Source of the DNA: an uncultured Pelagibacteraceae bacterium
GTDB taxonomy: Bacteria; Pseudomonadota; Alphaproteobacteria; Pelagibacterales; Pelagibacteraceae
Direction of reading: 5' to 3'
NCBI GenBank assembly: GCA_902525625.1
Contig: CABZHM010000002.1
Coordinates: 1-64,000 of the forward strand
Length of the DNA stretch: 64,000 nucleotides
Positions 6,081-16,332 of the stretch are shown in pieces; the first letter of the stretch is position 1, and the number at the start of each line of letters is the position of its first letter. The translations under genes were made by a program, and so were the position numbers. The notes beneath the pieces are model-generated. The model ran no database searches and had not been told where the DNA came from. It worked only from the letters and a program-made list of their open reading frames with translations.

Positions 6081-6155
6081 GGTCCCTTCGTCTATCGGTT
6101 AGGACACGTGGTTTTCATCCTCGAAAGAGGGGTTCGATTCCCCTAGGGACCGCCA
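6081..6155 (+). tRNA. tRNA-Glu (anticodon TTC)
   Basis: GGTCCCT/AGGGACC acceptor, AGGGG-TTCGATT-CCCCT T-arm, TTTTCAT anticodon loop, CCA encoded; one T-T mismatch in anticodon stem. Confidence 0.93.
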
Positions 6156-6158
6156 TAA

Positions 6159-6410
6159 ATGTCCTATTTTGTGTATTTAATTGTCTCAAATCTTAAAAAA
6201 AACAAAAAAATTTCATACGTTGGCTACACCAATAACTTAAAAAAAAGAATAGGTTTACATAATTCAGGTAAAGGAGCAAAGTTTACCAGAGGAAAAAAAT
6301 GGAAGTTAGTTTACTATAGAAAGTATGATTCGAGATCATTAGCTATGAAAAATGAATATATTTTAAAAAAAGATTATAAATTAAGAAATAAGATACTTAA
6401 AAAAAAATGA
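6159..6410 (+). CDS. GIY-YIG nuclease family protein (UPF0213-like)
   Basis: YFVYLIVSN…SYVGYTNNLKKRIGLHNSGKGAKFTRGKKWKLVYY. Confidence 0.9.
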   Translation: MSYFVYLIVSNLKKNKKISYVGYTNNLKKRIGLHNSGKGAKFTRGKKWKLVYYRKYDSRSLAMKNEYILKKDYKLRNKILKKK

Positions 6411-8536
6411 AAATCTCAATTTTGTTACCTTTAAAAGAAAATTTTTCACCTGTATATGCTGGTGCTGTATCGTTATTTATTAATGATACATTGGAATATA
6501 GTAAATTTAAAAAAAATGTAACTGTTTTTGGTCAAACTGAATTTAAAGAAACATTTAATAAGAAATACTTTAATATCAATACAAATAAATCTTTATTTCA
6601 GAGTCAAAATAAAGATTATGTTAAACAATTTATCAAAAAGGAAAAACAACTAAATTCACAAGTCATTGAATTACACAATAGACCAATTTATGTCAAATAT
6701 TTGGTGAAAGAATTAAAAAACAGAAATTATATCTTATATTTTCATAATGATCCTTTAACGATGTCTGGGTCAAAGAGTATTAGTGATAGATCATATTTAT
6801 TAAATAATTGTTATAGAATAATATTCAATAGTAACTGGTCTAAAAAAAGATTCTTACAAAATATGAAAATAGACGCTGTTAATAGTGAAAAATTAATTGT
6901 TATAAATCAATCAGCGTCAAAAAATAAAATTAATTTCAGAAATAAAAAAAATATTATCACTTTTGTAGGAAAACTAAATAGATCAAAAGGTTATGATCTT
7001 TTTGGAAATGCTGTAATTAAAATTTTAAAAAAATATAAAAATTGGATGGCATATGTTGTTGGTGATGAACCAAGAGATAAATTATTTTTTAAACATGAGA
7101 GACTTAAAAATTTGGGTTTTAAAGAACATAAAGAGGTAATTAAGATTTATAAAAAAACTAACATTGCAGTAGTTTGTTCTAGATGGGACGAACCTTTTGG
7201 AAGAACCAGTTTAGAGGCTGCTGCCAATGGATGTGCTGTGATAATTAGTAATAGAGGTGGACTTCCAGAAACTATTACTAATGGAAGAATATTAAAGAAT
7301 TTAACTGTAAAAGATATTTACAAAAATATAGAAGACTTAATATTAAATCCAAAAATAAGGAAAAAATATCAAAAATTATCTCTTAAAAATTTTTATTTAT
7401 CTCATCAATACGTTTCACGTCTAATTGACAATATTCGTTTTAATTTTTTAAAAATAAATAAACCATATATTTCAAACTCTAAATCTAATTTAAGAATTTT
7501 ACATATTACAAATTTTAACGAAAAGCATAATGGTAGATTATTCTTTAATACAGGAAGAAGATTAAATAATGGGTTTATAAGATTAGGACATAGTGTATTA
7601 GAATTTAGCGATCGAGATATTGTAAGCAGAGGTAGGTCAATTAAGGATTTTTCAGGATCTACCACACTTAATGATAAATTATTAAAGACTTGTAATCATT
7701 TTAAACCAGATATGATTGTTTTGGGACATGCAGATATGATATCAAAAGATATTTTGCATGATCTTAAAAGAAATTATTCTGATTTGAAAATAGCCCAATG
7801 GTTCCTAGATCCTTTAAATAAAAATGGACCTGATTTTTTGAAGAATAAAAATAGAATACTTGATAAATCTGATGTCTTAGATGCAAATTTTTTAACTACT
7901 TCTCCTGAAGCTGTTAGTTTGCTATCTGGAAAAGTTAATAATTATTTTATTCCAAATCCATCGGATAGTTCCATGGAGACATTGGACAATTACAAAAAAG
8001 ATTGCTCTAATGATGTTTTTTTTGCATTAAGCCATGGTGTACATAGGGGTCAATTAAAAAATAGGTCATCTGATGATAGAGAAAATTTTATTAAGGATTT
8101 AGTATCAAAATGTAAAAATATTAAATTTGATTTATTTGGTATGAACAATATTCAGCCTATATGGGCTGATCAATATTTTAAAAACATTTCAAATTCAAAA
8201 ATGGGTCTCAATTTAAGTAGAGGAACACCAATTAAATACTACAGTAGTGATAGAATTACTCAAATTGTAGGAAATGGTTTAGTCACACTAATTGATGAAA
8301 AAACATGTTATAATGATTTTTTTGATAATTCAGAAATGGTTTTCTACAAAAATATTTCAGATTTATCAGAAAAAATTGAAAAAATTTCTGAAGATGAAAA
8401 ATTAAGAAAATCAATAGGTCGAAAAGGTAAGACTAAATATATGAAATATTTCAATTCAAACCTAGTAGCTGATTTTATAATAAAAAAAACTTTAAATTTA
8501 AAAGATAAAAAAAAATATTTATGGAATAAACCATAA
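6407..8536 (+). CDS. Two-domain glycosyltransferase: GT4-like N-half fused to CgeB/DUF3880-like C-half
   Basis: N-half: VGKLNRSKGYDLF, RWDEPFGRTSLEAAANGCAVIISNRGGLPE. C-half: LRILHITNFNEKHNGR…GLNLSRGTPIKYYSSDRITQIVGNG. Confidence 0.82.
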   Translation: MKISILLPLKENFSPVYAGAVSLFINDTLEYSKFKKNVTVFGQTEFKETFNKKYFNINTNKSLFQSQNKDYVKQFIKKEKQLNSQVIELHNRPIYVKYLVKELKNRNYILYFHNDPLTMSGSKSISDRSYLLNNCYRIIFNSNWSKKRFLQNMKIDAVNSEKLIVINQSASKNKINFRNKKNIITFVGKLNRSKGYDLFGNAVIKILKKYKNWMAYVVGDEPRDKLFFKHERLKNLGFKEHKEVIKIYKKTNIAVVCSRWDEPFGRTSLEAAANGCAVIISNRGGLPETITNGRILKNLTVKDIYKNIEDLILNPKIRKKYQKLSLKNFYLSHQYVSRLIDNIRFNFLKINKPYISNSKSNLRILHITNFNEKHNGRLFFNTGRRLNNGFIRLGHSVLEFSDRDIVSRGRSIKDFSGSTTLNDKLLKTCNHFKPDMIVLGHADMISKDILHDLKRNYSDLKIAQWFLDPLNKNGPDFLKNKNRILDKSDVLDANFLTTSPEAVSLLSGKVNNYFIPNPSDSSMETLDNYKKDCSNDVFFALSHGVHRGQLKNRSSDDRENFIKDLVSKCKNIKFDLFGMNNIQPIWADQYFKNISNSKMGLNLSRGTPIKYYSSDRITQIVGNGLVTLIDEKTCYNDFFDNSEMVFYKNISDLSEKIEKISEDEKLRKSIGRKGKTKYMKYFNSNLVADFIIKKTLNLKDKKKYLWNKP

Positions 8537-8571
8537 GATGATCTCTGTTATAGTTCTTAAATTAAATAATA

Positions 8572-9315
8572 ATGAAAATTGAAGAAAAAATTAAAAATAA
8601 ATATTTATATTCGAAAAAAACTAACATTTTTAAATTTTTTTATTTTCATTTCCAGTTTTTAAAGGCCAAATTTAAACCAAGGCTAGCTTATTCGCACTGG
8701 GGAGTGGATCTAATAATAACAAAATTATTAAATTCAAAAAATAAAGGAATATATATTGATGTAGGTTGTCACCATCCATTTCTAAATAACCACTCCTATT
8801 TATTATACAAATCAGGTTGGGAGGGTATAAATATCGACATAGATTATAACTCTATTGATATGTTTAATTTTTTTAGAAAAAGTGATGTTAATATACAAAC
8901 TGCTGTAACAGATCATAAAGGTGAGGTTGATTTATTTTTTTATCATAATAGAGCAGCAAAAAATACAATTTCAAAAGAATTTGGTTCAGATGCAAAAGAA
9001 AAAAAAAAAATAAATTCAGATACTTTAAATAATATTATTGAAAATAGTAAATTTAAAAATTCAAAAATTGATTTTGTTTCTATTGATGTAGAAGGAAATG
9101 AAATGAATGTGCTTAACGGTTTTAATTTAAAAAAATATAAACCTAAACTTATTTTATTAGAGTTTATACTACCAAATAAAAAAGAATTTTATGAAAAAGA
9201 TATCAATGAAATTACTAACTCAGAGGTATATAAATTTTTGATTAAAAATGAATATAAATTAATTAATTGGAATCATGATGATTTGCTCTTTATGAGTCTG
9301 GATTATAGTAAATAA
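8572..9315 (+). CDS. FkbM family methyltransferase
   Basis: YIDVGCHHPFLNNHSYLLYKSGWEGINID, DFVSIDVEGNEMNVLNGFN. Confidence 0.88.
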   Translation: MKIEEKIKNKYLYSKKTNIFKFFYFHFQFLKAKFKPRLAYSHWGVDLIITKLLNSKNKGIYIDVGCHHPFLNNHSYLLYKSGWEGINIDIDYNSIDMFNFFRKSDVNIQTAVTDHKGEVDLFFYHNRAAKNTISKEFGSDAKEKKKINSDTLNNIIENSKFKNSKIDFVSIDVEGNEMNVLNGFNLKKYKPKLILLEFILPNKKEFYEKDINEITNSEVYKFLIKNEYKLINWNHDDLLFMSLDYSK

Positions 9316-10262
9316 TGTCTAGCACATTAATTTATTACAATAGTAAAGAAAATTTAAAAAAAAAAAATCTTGGTGGTATAGAGACACTAAATTTAAACTT
9401 ATTTAAAAAGTTAAAAAAAAGTAAAATTAATTGCCAAATAAGTAATAAAATTACAAAGAAAATATCAAAAAAAAAATGGAAGAATATTATTAGTTCAAAT
9501 GATGCGAGAATTTTCAATAAAATAAGTTCCGAAAATAATTATTTATGGTTACATAATAAATTACAAATAGAGAAAGCATTCAGAAAAAGACAATTTTTTT
9601 CAATTTTTAAAAATAAAATTAACGCTATTTATAATAGTAAGTACTTATATAATAATACTTCAAAACTATACTATTTTAAAAAAAATTTCATAATTCCAAA
9701 TTTTTTAAGTAAAGAATTTGAAAATGTATCAGTTAATTATAATAGAAAACCTTTTTTTGTATGGTCTGTTCAAAGAAATAAAGGATTAGATAAAATAATT
9801 GATATATGGATAAATGATATATATTCAAAAAATAAAAAATTTAAGTTATTCATTTTTGGAATTAGTAAAAGTAATTTAGAAAGATATGACCTTAAAAATT
9901 TATCAAATTATAATGTTTATTATAAGGGCAGGGTAAATAAACAAACTTTAATAGGTTTTTATAGAAAATCTTTAGCCATGATTTGTTTAGGTTATGATGA
10001 GACTTTTTGTTTAAATGCGATAGAATCATTTGCCTGTGGATTGCCCATTATAACATTTGGACATACTGCTGTAGCCGAGATTTCTAACAAAAAAAATAGT
10101 TTTAAATTGTTTAATTATAATGATATCTCCAAATGTATAATACAAATTGCAAATATGAATTTGAGATCTAGGAAAAAGTTAATTAATAACTGTATTAAAT
10201 TTTCTCAAAGTTATCATTTAGATTTAATAATTAATAAATGGCTAAAATTAATAAGTAAATAA
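9315..10262 (+). CDS. Glycosyltransferase, GT4-like
   Basis: NLGGIETLNLNLFKKL, VWSVQRNKGLDKIID, DETFCLNAIESFACGLPIITFG. Confidence 0.82.
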   Translation: MSSTLIYYNSKENLKKKNLGGIETLNLNLFKKLKKSKINCQISNKITKKISKKKWKNIISSNDARIFNKISSENNYLWLHNKLQIEKAFRKRQFFSIFKNKINAIYNSKYLYNNTSKLYYFKKNFIIPNFLSKEFENVSVNYNRKPFFVWSVQRNKGLDKIIDIWINDIYSKNKKFKLFIFGISKSNLERYDLKNLSNYNVYYKGRVNKQTLIGFYRKSLAMICLGYDETFCLNAIESFACGLPIITFGHTAVAEISNKKNSFKLFNYNDISKCIIQIANMNLRSRKKLINNCIKFSQSYHLDLIINKWLKLISK

Positions 10263-10266
10263 CTTT

Positions 10267-11016
10267 ATGTTTCATAAATTATTATCAAAATTTATTATTT
10301 TTTTAAAAAAGTCATTGCCAGTTTCATTTAAAATAAATCATAAATATCAAAATCGTAACCAAGTGACTAATTTAGATATAATTATCACCTCTTTAAAGAA
10401 TAAAAATTTTAACCCAGATTATATAGTAGATGTTGGATGTTTTAGGGGGATTTGGACAAAAAAAATATTAAAATTCTTTCCAAAATCAAAATATATTTTG
10501 TTTGATGCAGATGAAAAAAATATCGAATATTTAGAAAAGATTAAATCTAATAATAGAAATGTAGATTATAAAATCAAATTACTTTCTGATGATGAAAAAG
10601 ATTATGATTTCTTTTCGATGGCCTCAGGTTCATCAATTTTTGAGGAACAGACAAATTATTCTAGAGAAATAAAGAAAATAAAATCATTTCTTCTATGTAA
10701 TGAACTTCCTAATGAAATAAGAAATACTAGATCGAATTTAATTAAACTTGATGTTCAAGGCGCAGAATTAAAAATTATAACTGGCCTTAAGGAATTAATT
10801 AATAATTTTGAAGTTATTATTCTTGAAGTTTCCCTTCATAAATATAACAAAGGTTCCCCCTTGTTTTATGAGGTTATTTCTTACATGCAAAATAAAAAAT
10901 ATATTTTATATGATATTTATGATTTAAAAAGATTGGGGGATCGAGATTCCTATTTATTACAATTTGATTGTGTTTTTTTAAGAGCAGATTCTATTCTTTT
11001 AAAAGTTAAATTTTGA
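10267..11016 (+). CDS. FkbM family methyltransferase
   Basis: DYIVDVGCFRGIWTKKIL, NLIKLDVQGAELKIITGL. Confidence 0.88.
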   Translation: MFHKLLSKFIIFLKKSLPVSFKINHKYQNRNQVTNLDIIITSLKNKNFNPDYIVDVGCFRGIWTKKILKFFPKSKYILFDADEKNIEYLEKIKSNNRNVDYKIKLLSDDEKDYDFFSMASGSSIFEEQTNYSREIKKIKSFLLCNELPNEIRNTRSNLIKLDVQGAELKIITGLKELINNFEVIILEVSLHKYNKGSPLFYEVISYMQNKKYILYDIYDLKRLGDRDSYLLQFDCVFLRADSILLKVKF

Positions 11017-11037: not shown

Positions 11038-11991
11038 TCATAATTTTACTTTATTAAGTGCATTATTTTTGAAAATATTTGCTTCTCTTATATATCTTCT
11101 AACCATCTGAGTTGTTTTGTGACCAGTCATTGCCATTATACTACGTTCATCAGCACCAGAATCTGCAGCGACAGTTGCAAAACCAGATCTTAAACTATGA
11201 CCCGCAAAATTTTTATTTTCTATACCCGCTAAATTCAAATATTCTTTCATTAATAAAACTACTGATTGATCAGTTAGTCTTTTGTCAGTTAATGATGAAC
11301 CTTTTGAAAATCTTCTAAAAATTGGTCCAGATTTAATTTTAGAAATTTCTAACCATTTTTTAAGATTAACAATTGGACAATAATTGTCATTAGTGAAGTA
11401 AGGCAGTCCTTTAATCATCCCTTCTCCAAATTGATCAGTTTTTGATCTTTTAATAGTGATTTTGAGTCCTTCAGGTACAAATTCTAAATCTTCATGATCA
11501 ATTGAAATTAGCTCAGTTCGTCTAAAACCACCACCAAAGCCTACTAAGATAATTGTCTTGTCTCTATACTTCTTTATGTCTTCAATTTTTTGTTCATCTA
11601 TTACATTAATTATTGATTTTAAATGATTGATTAATAGAGGTTTTTTACCTTTCTGAATGCTTCCTTTTTTCCTTTTTATTCCCATTAAATTTTCAACAAT
11701 AATTGGGTGTTTTGTATCTAAATAATGTCCCTTAAGTTTATGCACCATGCTTATGGACACTAATCTTCTCCTTAACGTACTGATTTTTGAATTTTTAGAA
11801 AGATGGGTTAGGTATAAAGAGACTATTTTTGGTTCTGATGGTAAGGAATTTAAACCATGTTTAGCACAAAAAGCTCCAAAATCTTTAAAGTCAGACTTGT
11901 ATGCTCTTAAAGTGTTATCTGCTTTAGAGCTTTTGAGGTTATTAAGTGTTGCCTCGTGAAGGGATTTTAGGTCTGTCGTTAGTTCATTCAT
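11038..11991 (-). CDS. Tyrosine recombinase / site-specific integrase
   Basis: GFGGGFRRTELISIDHEDLE (catalytic R), HSLRSGFATVAADSGA (HxxR), GHKTTQMVRRYIRE (H…Y); N-terminal SAM-like core-binding domain. Confidence 0.94.
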   Translation of the reverse strand: MNELTTDLKSLHEATLNNLKSSKADNTLRAYKSDFKDFGAFCAKHGLNSLPSEPKIVSLYLTHLSKNSKISTLRRRLVSISMVHKLKGHYLDTKHPIIVENLMGIKRKKGSIQKGKKPLLINHLKSIINVIDEQKIEDIKKYRDKTIILVGFGGGFRRTELISIDHEDLEFVPEGLKITIKRSKTDQFGEGMIKGLPYFTNDNYCPIVNLKKWLEISKIKSGPIFRRFSKGSSLTDKRLTDQSVVLLMKEYLNLAGIENKNFAGHSLRSGFATVAADSGADERSIMAMTGHKTTQMVRRYIREANIFKNNALNKVKL

Positions 11992-11994
11992 ATA

Positions 11995-12029
11995 ATTACT
12001 ATTGATAACAATTAATTATCATTAGTAAT
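11995..12029. repeat. 35-bp imperfect dyad, 14-bp arms with 7-bp spacer, adjacent to the integrase start; possible recombination site or operator
   Basis: ATTACTATTGATAA-CAATTAA-TTATCATTAGTAAT, one mismatch between arms. Confidence 0.6.
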
Positions 12030-12036
12030 ATATCAA

Positions 12037-12246
12037 GTGATTTTTAATGTCAATAGTTTAAATTACAAATATATGGGTTCAATTGATGGAGAAATTCCTG
12101 CGGTATGGTTTTTAATAAGTTCAATTGGATTTATTATTTTAAGTGTTATTCAGTATAAAAATACTGGTAAAAGTATAAATACAATATTTCTATCAAGTAT
12201 GGCGATTATATTTTTTGCCAGTTACCTAATATTGCTTACAAAATAG
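12037..12246 (+). CDS. Small hypothetical membrane protein, 2 predicted TM helices (start could be ATG 12073)
   Basis: AVWFLISSIGFIILSVIQY and TIFLSSMAIIFFASYLILL hydrophobic segments. Confidence 0.5.
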   Translation: MIFNVNSLNYKYMGSIDGEIPAVWFLISSIGFIILSVIQYKNTGKSINTIFLSSMAIIFFASYLILLTK

Positions 12247-12335: not shown

Positions 12336-12529
12336 TTTTTAACTTAAGAGGCAACTCTTAACTGGCCAGCCAGAGAAAGGCCGAGAGGTTTAAGTCTGGA
12401 GGGCAGAAAACCCTGTAAAGCAGCGCTAAACATACAGGGTGGTCGGTTCGGCGGTAGCGCATAAAACGACGAGCCATAAAATTCTGATCTTTGCACTGTA
12501 AAAAGTGTAAAGAATCAGGGTTTTTTTTT
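12336..12529 (+). ncRNA. Structured RNA of unknown class (sRNA or ogt leader) with pseudoknot and intrinsic terminator
   Basis: Hairpin TTAAGAG-GCAA-CTCTTAA (12344-12361); 8-bp stem ACCCTGTA 12410-12417/TACAGGGT 12433-12440; its loop GCGCTA 12423-12428 pairs TAGCGC 12455-12460; terminator 12484-12529. Locally G/C-rich against an AT-rich background. Confidence 0.72.
12484..12529 (+). terminator. Intrinsic terminator ending directly at the ogt start codon
   Basis: CTGATCTTTGCACT…AGTGTAAAGAATCAG stem (one bulge) then GG-T9, ATG at 12530. Confidence 0.75.
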
Positions 12530-12808
12530 ATGAAATCCTTACTTGGAACAAAATTTCAGATAAAAGTTTGGAAATATCTTATTTCTATCCCTAAAGGAAG
12601 CATAAGAACATATAAACAAGTTGCAATCGCCATTAAATGCCCCAAAGCAGCCCGCGCAGTAGCAAATGCTTGTGCTAAAAACCCACATGCTCCAAAAATA
12701 CCCTGTCATAGAGTGATTAGGTCTGATGGAGCTCTTGGAGGTTATTCTGGGAGAGGTGGAATTAGGCAAAAGCTCAAATTACTTAGATCTGAAAAAGTAT
12801 CAATTTAG
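12530..12808 (+). CDS. Methylated-DNA-protein cysteine methyltransferase domain protein (Ogt/MGMT C-terminal domain only)
   Basis: MKSLLGTKFQIKVWKYLISIPKGSIRTYKQVA…KIPCHRVIRSDGALGGYSGR; PCHR active site. Confidence 0.9.
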   Translation: MKSLLGTKFQIKVWKYLISIPKGSIRTYKQVAIAIKCPKAARAVANACAKNPHAPKIPCHRVIRSDGALGGYSGRGGIRQKLKLLRSEKVSI

Positions 12809-12958
12809 AAATATTTTAACCTTTTTTAAGTTAAAAAAGTAATTAAAATCAACCTTTTTTTACTCTTTTAGGTGATTTCTTCCAAAATAACATATTCACC
12901 CTTTAGTTGTACCATATACTAGCCTATACTTAAAATAGACCCCTCTACGGGCGTTTAA

Positions 12959-13135
12959 ATGGTATATTCAATAAGTGCATCGCTCTACTATTCAACTAGA
13001 TCAATGCTTTTAGACTGTACTAATTTTAGGGAATTTTCATTACCTCAATCTGAAAAAAATCGCTATTTTAAACAACTATTTGATATTTTTCATAATTTGC
13101 TTAAAATCCCCACTCTTGCTCAGCATATGAAGTAA
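12959..13135 (+). CDS. Possible 58-aa ORF in an otherwise empty intergenic region
   Basis: MVYSISASLYYSTRSMLLDCTNFREFSLPQSEKNRYFKQLFDIFHNLLKIPTLAQHMK; below the ORF-track size cutoff; no recognised family. Confidence 0.2.
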   Translation: MVYSISASLYYSTRSMLLDCTNFREFSLPQSEKNRYFKQLFDIFHNLLKIPTLAQHMK

Positions 13136-13213
13136 ATTTTTGAATTAAATTATCCAAAGTATTCAAAAAATTATATTATTTATATTATTAATAAAATACA
13201 ATAAATACAATGG

Positions 13214-13255
13214 TTTACTATTAATACTTAATTAAATACTTTAGATAATAGTAAA
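13214..13255. repeat. Perfect 10-bp inverted repeat with 22-bp spacer
   Basis: TTTACTATTA…TAATAGTAAA. Confidence 0.5.
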
Positions 13256-13273
13256 TAAATTATACCTATTATT

Positions 13274-14119
13274 TTACTTTTTTACTAAGTTCTCTCTTCT
13301 TGAGATGTAGATACCACTTAATACAATAATAGATAAACCTAAGAAAGTCCAATTATCGGGGAAATCACTAAAGAAGTAATAGCCTATAATTATGTTTGTA
13401 ATAATTTCAAAGTAACTAAATGGAGCTAATTTAGAAGCATCAGCGTATTTAAGAGACAATATAAGAAAAAAATGGCCTAAACATGCAAAAATACCTATCC
13501 CAGCCATGATAGACCACTGATTAAAATTAGGTTTAACCCAAACAAATGGCATCACAAAAGATATGATTATGGCCCCTACTACACCAGTTAATAATAAAGT
13601 TAATAAAGGATTGTCTGACGTGCTCAATTTACGAGTAATAATTAAATAAAACCCATACATTACACCTGTTCCAAGCGCAGCAATACTTGCTAAATTTATT
13701 TCAACATAACCAGGCCTTATAACTACTAATGAACCTATAAACCCAATAATAACTGCAGACCATCTCCTAAATCCAACTCTCTCACCTAAAAAAATTGGAG
13801 AAAAAGCAGTCACAATTAAAGGAGCAACAAAAGCCAAAGTTAGTGCTTTAGCTAAAGAAATTATAGAAATTGCGTAAAAGAAACAAATATTAGCTGTTAA
13901 AAGAATTATCCCTCTTATAATTTGTAATTTTGGTTTATCAGTCCACACAAGATTATTTCTAAAAAATAAGAACATAATTGGAAAAGTAAATGCAACGGTA
14001 AAAAAATATCTTGCCCAAGTTATTTGTAAGACTGGAAGATCAGCACTTAGATATTTTGCAAATCCATCCATTATTGGAAGCATTACCCAGGCCAATAGAT
14101 TAAAAGTTATAGCCTTCAT
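13274..14119 (-). CDS. EamA/DMT family transporter
   Basis: 10-TM pattern, FVAPLIVTAFSPIFLGERVGFRRWSAVIIGFIGSLVVIRPG. Confidence 0.88.
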   Translation of the reverse strand: MKAITFNLLAWVMLPIMDGFAKYLSADLPVLQITWARYFFTVAFTFPIMFLFFRNNLVWTDKPKLQIIRGIILLTANICFFYAISIISLAKALTLAFVAPLIVTAFSPIFLGERVGFRRWSAVIIGFIGSLVVIRPGYVEINLASIAALGTGVMYGFYLIITRKLSTSDNPLLTLLLTGVVGAIIISFVMPFVWVKPNFNQWSIMAGIGIFACLGHFFLILSLKYADASKLAPFSYFEIITNIIIGYYFFSDFPDNWTFLGLSIIVLSGIYISRRENLVKK

Positions 14120-14137
14120 CTACTAAGAAGATATATA

Positions 14138-15040
14138 TTAATTAAAGTATTTTAAAGCAAAGAATACTACTATTGGAACGGTTATAAATGACATCAATGT
14201 CGAAACAACAATAGTACTAGCGACACTATCGATAATCTTTTTAGGAGAATATATAGAAGCAACAAGATAATTTAGAACTGCACTTGGCATAGAACATTGA
14301 ATTAATAAAACTCCCGCTGCAAATCCCTCTAGATTAAAATATAAAATCAAAAAGTATCCAATTATAGGACCAATAATTACTCGTCCTATAGAGGAAAATA
14401 TTGCTTTATTAAGTGAAAAGACCTTCAGTCTTGTTAGAGCAATTCCTAAAGACATTAAAATCAAAAATATTGTAGCATACATTAATAGAAAGGTAGTATT
14501 TTCAACAAACCCCGGAAGTTCTAAATCATAATAAAGCAAAAAAACAGAAATTATTATTGCGTAAAATGGAGGGCTTTTAAGTATAACGTGTAAACTAAAT
14601 TTTCTATCAGCAAGAAATACACCTAGGGTAAAGTGGCATAAGATAATCAGAGCAGATATTGCAGCTGAAACTCCAAGTCCTTGTGAACCATAGGCAAATA
14701 AACATATGGGTAAACCCATATTTCCAGTGTTTGGCATTGTTAGTGGGGGTAATTCTCTTATAATATCTTTAGTATTTAGAAGATATAGTATTATTATTCC
14801 AGTAATCATAAAACCGACAATAGCTAGTGCGTAATACCAAAAAAAATTTAAAAAAATATTAAAAGAAATATTCACTGGATTTAAAGCATAAATAATCATT
14901 GCTGGGGTTCCAACGTTAGCAGCAAAATTAGTAATAAAAGTTGTATCTATTTTAGGATTTTTTTTACCTAAGTAATATCCAATACCAACTACAGAGAAAA
15001 CAGGGAATAAAACCTCGAAAAGTTTTATGTAAATATCCAT
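14138..15040 (-). CDS. AEC family transporter (auxin efflux carrier fold)
   Basis: PNTGNMGLPICLFAYG, multi-TM. Confidence 0.85.
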   Translation of the reverse strand: MDIYIKLFEVLFPVFSVVGIGYYLGKKNPKIDTTFITNFAANVGTPAMIIYALNPVNISFNIFLNFFWYYALAIVGFMITGIIILYLLNTKDIIRELPPLTMPNTGNMGLPICLFAYGSQGLGVSAAISALIILCHFTLGVFLADRKFSLHVILKSPPFYAIIISVFLLYYDLELPGFVENTTFLLMYATIFLILMSLGIALTRLKVFSLNKAIFSSIGRVIIGPIIGYFLILYFNLEGFAAGVLLIQCSMPSAVLNYLVASIYSPKKIIDSVASTIVVSTLMSFITVPIVVFFALKYFN

Positions 15041-16332
15041 TAATTATATAATCTTATTAATGTTGGAGATTTAAGAATATTCTTATTTTTTCCAAAAATA
15101 GATAAGCAATTGCTAGCATTTTTCTCATAAGTTTTATGGGTAATGATGACTATTGTCGCCCTCTTGTTTTTTTTATCTGGTGTTTGAATTATTCTTTTTA
15201 CAGAAATTTTATATTTAGCTAATCTGTTTGTTATAAGAGAAAGAACACCCTGTTTGTCGTTAACTTCAAATCTAAGATATAAAGAATTAGTATAATTATC
15301 ATTGTTAAATGATTTGAGAGATTTTCTTTTTTTTGAGGATAAACCAAAAGGATATTTAATATTTCCTCTCAAAATTGATAGCAAATCAGACAATAAAGAA
15401 GATGAGGTTGGTCCCGGACCAGCACCCTCGCCTTGTAAAACACTCTCACCTATTGGTTTGCCCTCTATAATAACTGCATTCATAACGCCATTAACATTAC
15501 CAATATACGTGTTCTTACCAACTAAACATGGATGCACAGTTTCAAATAATCTATTTTTAATTATTTGAGAAATACCAAGAAGTTTAACTCTTAATCCTAA
15601 TTGACTAGCAATTTTAATATCCTTTAAATCGATATTTTCAATACCTTGCATTATGCAATTATGTTTAGAAATTTGTGTATTAAAGGAAAGTGCAGATAAG
15701 ATTCTCACTTTTGCAAACGCATCAAATCCATTTAAATCAAGTTTTGGATTGCCCGGCTCAGCATAACCAAGTTGTTGAGCTTTTTGTAAAACTTTTTTAA
15801 AATTTTCGTTACTACTTTCCATTTCAGATAAAATATAATTTGTTGTTCCATTTAAAATTCCATAAACTTTATTAATTTTATTTGTAGCCAAACCTTCTTT
15901 AATTGTTCTTAAAATAGGAATCCCTCCTGCAACAGAGGCTTCAAATTCTAAATTTACTTTATTTATTTCAGCAAGTTCTGCTAAACTATCACCATGTTTA
16001 GCTATTAGAGCTTTGTTAGGTGTTATAACGTGTATTTTATTTTTAAGAGCAGTTTCGACTATTTTTTTTGATATACCATCAGACAATCCTATACACTCAA
16101 ATAGTATATCTATTTTTTTGTCTTTAAAAATTTGAAGTGGTTTTTTAAAGAAAATATTTTTTTGAATTTGAAATTTTCGTTTTTTATTCTTATTTTTTGC
16201 TGAAATAGCAGTAATAATAATTTTTTTTCCAGTTTTTCTCTCAATTTCTTTTTTTTTTGATCTAAGCTCGTTGTAAAGATAAATACCTATTTGTCCTAAG
16301 CCTATGATTGCAATATTTACTGAATTTTTCAT
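15040..16332 (-). CDS. hom: Homoserine dehydrogenase with ACT domain
   Basis: IGLGQIGIYLYNEL, VITPNKALIAKHG, EASVAGGIPILRTIKEGL, GILNGTTNYIL. Confidence 0.95.
   Translation of the reverse strand: MKNSVNIAIIGLGQIGIYLYNELRSKKKEIERKTGKKIIITAISAKNKNKKRKFQIQKNIFFKKPLQIFKDKKIDILFECIGLSDGISKKIVETALKNKIHVITPNKALIAKHGDSLAELAEINKVNLEFEASVAGGIPILRTIKEGLATNKINKVYGILNGTTNYILSEMESSNENFKKVLQKAQQLGYAEPGNPKLDLNGFDAFAKVRILSALSFNTQISKHNCIMQGIENIDLKDIKIASQLGLRVKLLGISQIIKNRLFETVHPCLVGKNTYIGNVNGVMNAVIIEGKPIGESVLQGEGAGPGPTSSSLLSDLLSILRGNIKYPFGLSSKKRKSLKSFNNDNYTNSLYLRFEVNDKQGVLSLITNRLAKYKISVKRIIQTPDKKNKRATIVIITHKTYEKNASNCLSIFGKNKNILKSPTLIRLYN

Follow-up and report, generated by a model that had tools for sequence, protein, structure and literature searches.

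We report here a site that is very probably the dif of a single-recombinase Xer system of SAR11 (Pelagibacteraceae), at which chromosome dimers would be resolved by recombination. It lies in the 64,000-nucleotide stretch of Pelagibacteraceae DNA analyzed in this work (the window), as a dyad immediately beside the gene for a tyrosine recombinase. A 2009 survey of proteobacteria considered that P. ubique has no dif/Xer, the system having been lost through genome streamlining in a free-living organism (PMC2731167). No description of a single-recombinase Xer/dif in SAR11 was found in the literature searched, which covered few subscription papers. Few bacterial groups on Earth are as abundant as SAR11. 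If true, our reading overturns the published absence of dif/Xer in P. ubique, adds an Xer type that has one recombinase and a 7-bp centre, and provides an exact landmark for the SAR11 terminus.

The arms of the dyad pair at 13 of 14 positions, and its edge is 3 bp from the recombinase start codon (Table 1). A first-pass annotation had described a 14-7-14 dyad with one arm mismatch and a 7-bp asymmetric core, three bp upstream of the minus-strand start codon; sequence and coordinates proved exact, and the ATG at 11991 confirms the distance. No other 14-N(5-8)-14 dyad with one mismatch or none exists in the 64-kb window, where a first-order Markov model of the window DNA predicts 0.48 by chance, and no second copy of the 35-mer is present there with up to 3 mismatches. 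Since 0.48 dyads are expected by chance in such AT-rich DNA, geometry alone is weak evidence. The dyad was judged real because it is conserved beside orthologous recombinases.

Table 1. Coordinates of the putative dif site, the recombinase gene and neighbouring features in the window.
Feature	Position	Strand	Remarks
Xer-like tyrosine recombinase, 317 aa	11038..11991	minus	catalytic residues R157, K184, H265, R268, H291, Y300
Putative SAR11 dif, class A, TATTACTAAT-GATAATTAATTGTTATC-AATAGTAAT	11995..12030	minus	near-invariant, single-copy, beside recombinase, terminus position
Left arm ATTACTATTGATAA	11995-12008	not assigned	14 bp, proximal to recombinase gene
Centre CAATTAA (TTAATTG on minus strand)	12009-12015		7 bp, asymmetric; presumed strand-exchange region
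Right arm TTATCATTAGTAAT	12016-12029	not assigned	14 bp, distal to recombinase gene
Putative -10-like hexamer TATTAC	12025..12030	minus	overlaps outer end of dif arm; 17-bp spacing read from sequence and alignment
-35-like box TTGACA, recombinase promoter	12048..12053	minus	alignment of class-A sites
Variable glycosyltransferase/FkbM block	6081-11016		between tRNA-Glu and recombinase
Reading frame of 69 aa	12037-12246	plus	GTG start, hydrophobic stretches; reads away from site
IMES-2 RNA (RF02035, 150 bits)	12337-12477	plus	about 310 bp from site
Genes on opposite side of site	12530-16332		conserved in most relatives

Of 212 orthologue loci, 211 have the dyad next to the start of the recombinase gene, the exception being a truncated gene, and the exact 17-bp core GATAATTAATNGTTATC is present in 204 of them; the set includes some duplicate genomes and holds 196 full-length proteins, 177 of them different. 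The first-pass annotation had proposed a Cre/Xer-type core site paired with the adjacent recombinase, and had counted a lack of conservation next to orthologous integrases as part of what would refute it. The dyad is conserved there, and the pairing is supported. When the upstream regions of 19 orthologues were aligned, the dyad appeared as a conserved block between divergent flanks. The information content is 1.95-1.97 bits per base in the core compared to 0.34-0.42 farther upstream. In nearly all the relatives listed, the centre reads TTAATTG or TTAATGG. Of 121 congeneric genomes, 71 have the full class-A motif (see below), always as a single copy; among the rest, some have a class-B site, which the class-A pattern misses, and many are incomplete. 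The site was found to be intergenic, AT-rich, palindromic and located at a switch of GC skew.

The recombinase matches PF00589 (5.9e-18), its six catalytic residues are invariant across 18 orthologues, and the named Pelagibacteraceae relatives of the window have recombinases 90-97% identical. Scores against the NCBIfam models stay far below the respective cut-offs: 71.5 bits for XerD (cut-off 329.6), 62.5 for XerC (335.15), 69.1 for the archaeal XerA equivalog (220) and 44.1 for the XerS equivalog (267). Sequence similarity to XerH chains is weak (E 0.0017). An AlphaFold model of the protein (mean pLDDT 80, pTM 0.58) matched Cre best, followed by XerH, an integron integrase and XerA, at 15-18% identity. 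On this evidence, the recombinase probably works like an Xer but is outside the Xer families with tested cut-offs (XerC, XerD, XerA and XerS).

All 10 sampled genera of Pelagibacteraceae have the gene, as do 167 of 198 family genomes and every one of the 11 single-contig genomes. Most of the family's genomes encode a single PF00589 protein, while a few carry an extra, unrelated integrase, and no XerC/XerD-like proteins were detected in the Pelagibacteraceae genomes examined. The most complete assemblies of the sister family contain two strong PF00589 proteins per genome, as would be expected of XerC and XerD. The pattern in Pelagibacteraceae, one ubiquitous tyrosine recombinase and no XerC/XerD pair, is that of a single-recombinase Xer system. 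Two observations count against a dif: 18 of 141 genomes of the order, all at least 90% complete, have no recombinase match, and 19 drafts of the family that lack the gene also lack the site core. This joint absence looks like an assembly gap beside a variable region, and real loss of gene and site may have occurred in those drafts.

The position of the site agrees with the replication terminus. In G012, a single contig of 1,343,202 bp, the maximum of the cumulative GC skew is at 615,774 and the site, 1.8 kb away, occupies 617,601-617,636; the skew minimum, at 1,290,841, is nearly opposite the maximum. The local skew maximum is 2.8 kb from the site in G156, which is probably P. ubique HTCC1062, and about 1 kb from it in G097. 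As a marker of the origin, dnaA was rejected because some 92 kb separate it from the skew minimum of G012; hemC, which is beside that minimum, was used instead. By the shorter arc, hemC and the recombinase are separated by 0.44-0.50 of the chromosome in 9 of 11 single-contig genomes. Because hemC is close to the recombinase in both genomes of genus g11, one of them, G144, which has class-B arms, was checked by its own skew, and this flips from +0.087 to -0.102 at the site. Among draft loci with enough flank, the skew across the module of gene and site passes from plus to minus in 45 of 54 and in the reverse direction in none, so the orientation of the module is conserved too. An FtsK with a gamma domain is encoded. 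The motif GGNAGGG, which is close to the E. coli FtsK-orienting sequence GGGNAGGG, is distributed 44:10 between leading and lagging strands in G012.

Two classes of arms surround the same core. Class A, found in most relatives of the window, has arms of the form TATTACTAA..TAGTAAT, or TATTACTAAY..RATAGTAAT when a longer stretch is considered; class B, TTTCC..GGAAA, is found in more distant relatives. In both classes 7 bp separate the symmetric arms, a distance that describes the symmetry and not mapped cut positions. Both arms differ together between the classes, as would be expected if one protein bound the site as two copies. On a tree of 76 recombinases a single branch (support 98/96) carries the only change of site class, and arm class and recombinase class go together; since the switch occurred only once, the correlation is suggestive and not proof. 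Residue 242, near an insertion found only in class-A proteins, is Q in 38 of 38 class-A proteins and K in 38 of 38 class-B proteins. By our own motif-based reading, this residue presumably falls in the helix equivalent to that of Cre R259, which contacts loxP. Both site classes occur within each of genera g1, g5, g7 and g11, and for this reason the recombinase gene has probably been exchanged between lineages together with its site. Within g11, L303 (G144) is class B and L300 (G152) is class A, and the recombinase class matches each on the tree. If the dif module is true, the two classes would be a naturally occurring pair with different recombinase specificities.

The site also overlaps a conserved promoter. 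In 146 of 149 class-A sites the core is preceded by a TTGAC box that begins at a distance of 33 bp, and the arrangement TTGACA-N17-TATTAC confirms in part an alternative raised by the first-pass annotation, an operator or promoter at the dyad; the overlap stands, while the direction has to be corrected, because the promoter reads on the minus strand toward the recombinase and not toward 12037. Given this overlap, binding of the recombinase to the site probably also tunes or dampens its own transcription. G156 carries the recombinase and a class-A site, and since it has just one PF00589 protein, SAR11_1019, annotated as xerD, is presumably the orthologue of the window recombinase. Its mRNA rose 8.5-fold in sulfur-limited cells and 7.6-fold in control cells in stationary phase, conditions under which recA mRNA increased 7.3-fold and 3.1-fold, respectively (PMC5069961). 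Expression of both xerD and recA in SAR11 also increases in light (PMC3090418).

Sites of the same kind are found in phages. A scan of viral contigs with the 17-bp core gave 29 contigs, many with class-A or class-B arms, and together with a second scan, based on class-B arms, 44 viral sites with the core and good arms were obtained. At the variable base, 21 of them have C, 19 have T and 4 have A; none of the host sites listed has C. Scans for the arms alone, with the spacer left free, detected at least 120 contigs with class-B and 36 with class-A arms. In the pooled viral loci, the spacer of class-B matches is 7 bp in 106 of 131, out of a permitted range of 5-9. A terL relative is found no more than 1.5 kb from 64 class-B matches and 23 class-A matches. 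For 66 of the 131 class-B matches there is no terL relative on the available contig stretch, and those with unrelated spacers may be due to chance. Wherever both terminase genes could be read, the phage site is between them, terS being assigned by position and sequence. Of 60 phage class-B sites, 10 (16.7%) have an exact class-A half-site no more than 45 bp away, compared to 0.5% of placements made at random on these contigs. One site-bearing contig has a terL 84% identical to that of the isolate HTVC106P (L430). The corresponding position in the HTVC106P record holds a similar site that is one base shorter, and no integrase is listed there. HTVC100P (L431) has class-B-like and class-A-like sites in tandem; no convincing site was seen in the stretches of HTVC010P that were read. 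Pelagiphage-like contigs of IMG/VR with class-A and class-B sites between the terminase genes, in some cases arranged in tandem, include L264, L267, L278, L407 and L425.

The dif reading of the host site gains support from the phage sites, because these show both arm classes at places other than beside the host gene. It is possible, at somewhat less than an even chance, that pelagiphages related to HTVC106P and HTVC010P carry both host classes so that a host Xer recombinase of either class acts on the phage genome, either for integration at dif, as IMEX elements do, or for multimer resolution. If true, this would be a route for abundant pelagiphages to use a host recombinase. No phage genes were found in the flanks of host sites, and no integration of this phage group at a host dif was seen. 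A terL relative (44-46% identity) is present in 7 of 397 genomes of the family; in G208, the one genome so compared, it is about 180 kb from the recombinase on the same contig. Among the viral contigs, relatives of the recombinase were limited to one partial match of 41 residues. The papers searched contained no link between pelagiphages and a dif site.

According to the proposed mechanism, two protomers of the adjacent recombinase would bind the two inverted arms, and in a dimeric chromosome two dif sites would synapse at the replication terminus. Four protomers would then exchange strands across the 7-bp asymmetric centre and produce monomers, probably at the septum and with FtsK.

The dyad could instead be only an autoregulatory operator, with the target of the recombinase elsewhere. 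The promoter overlap and the start codon 3 bp away are compatible with such a role, but it leaves unexplained why the site is at the GC-skew maximum and why the asymmetric centre, and not just the arms, is invariant, the two arm classes are found in phage contigs away from the gene, and no other conserved target was found. We consider an operator alone improbable.

Two readings of the first-pass annotation are disfavoured. An att core of a genomic island would make the recombinase the integrase of the glycosyltransferase block (6159-11016) beside tRNA-Glu. That block does vary between genomes and the integrase gene does border it, but the recombinase is a family-wide gene at the terminus with varying neighbour genes, each genome has one site, and the end of tRNA-Glu is not repeated near the recombinase. 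The patchy distribution and att repeats flanking an element that mark a mobile integrase were not found, and this reading is very improbable. Still less credible is an inversion site for a phase switch. The Cre/Xer-type geometry beside a promoter would fit, and the protein has a weak match, far below cut-off, to a tyrosine DNA invertase model; however, the second site that inversion requires is absent from the window (up to 3 mismatches) and from 121 genomes, and the module keeps a constant orientation relative to replication (45 loci versus 0).

The putative SAR11 dif can be compared with several known systems. Cre, whose structures are the closest solved ones to the predicted recombinase model (about 17% identity), acts as one recombinase on a near-symmetric site, as the SAR11 protein would; the SAR11 system is chromosomal and family-wide. 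The loxP centre has 8 bp. XerC/XerD-dif shares with SAR11 a terminus site, an FtsK gamma domain and inner arm ends ATAA..TTAT. It uses two recombinases and a 6-bp centre (PMC2731167), in contrast to one recombinase and 7 bp in SAR11; the 7-bp centre, compared to the 6 bp reported for proteobacterial dif sites, counts against the dif reading. Single-recombinase systems are known as XerS in streptococci, XerH in epsilonproteobacteria and XerA in archaea (PMC5357621), and XerL in Legionellales (PMC9765430). XerS/difSL of streptococci and lactococci resembles SAR11 in having one recombinase and a site immediately by the gene, at the terminus, and the left arm of difSL, TTTCCGAAAA, given in a review (PMC5357621), differs by one base from the SAR11 class-B arm TTTCCGATAA. 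XerS, however, has 356 aa and an 11-bp centre (PMC5357621). XerH/difH of Helicobacter and Campylobacter also has one recombinase and a site near the gene at the terminus (PMC2731167), and XerH structures match the predicted SAR11 model, while XerH has 353-363 aa (PMC2731167) compared to 317 aa. XerL/dif, likened here by its description, has one recombinase and long symmetric arms; it was found in a group said to lack dif/Xer and is used by a mobile element (PMC9765430). Over 400 kb separate dif from xerL in L. pneumophila (PMC9765430), whereas in SAR11 the site and the gene are adjacent.

The surroundings of the site differ among relatives. The glycosyltransferase/FkbM block is present in differing versions. 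Frames similar to the 69-aa reading frame, which had no match in Pfam or PHROGs, are found upstream in only some relatives. The IMES-2 RNA lies near the recombinase gene in 14 of 20 sampled SAR11 loci.
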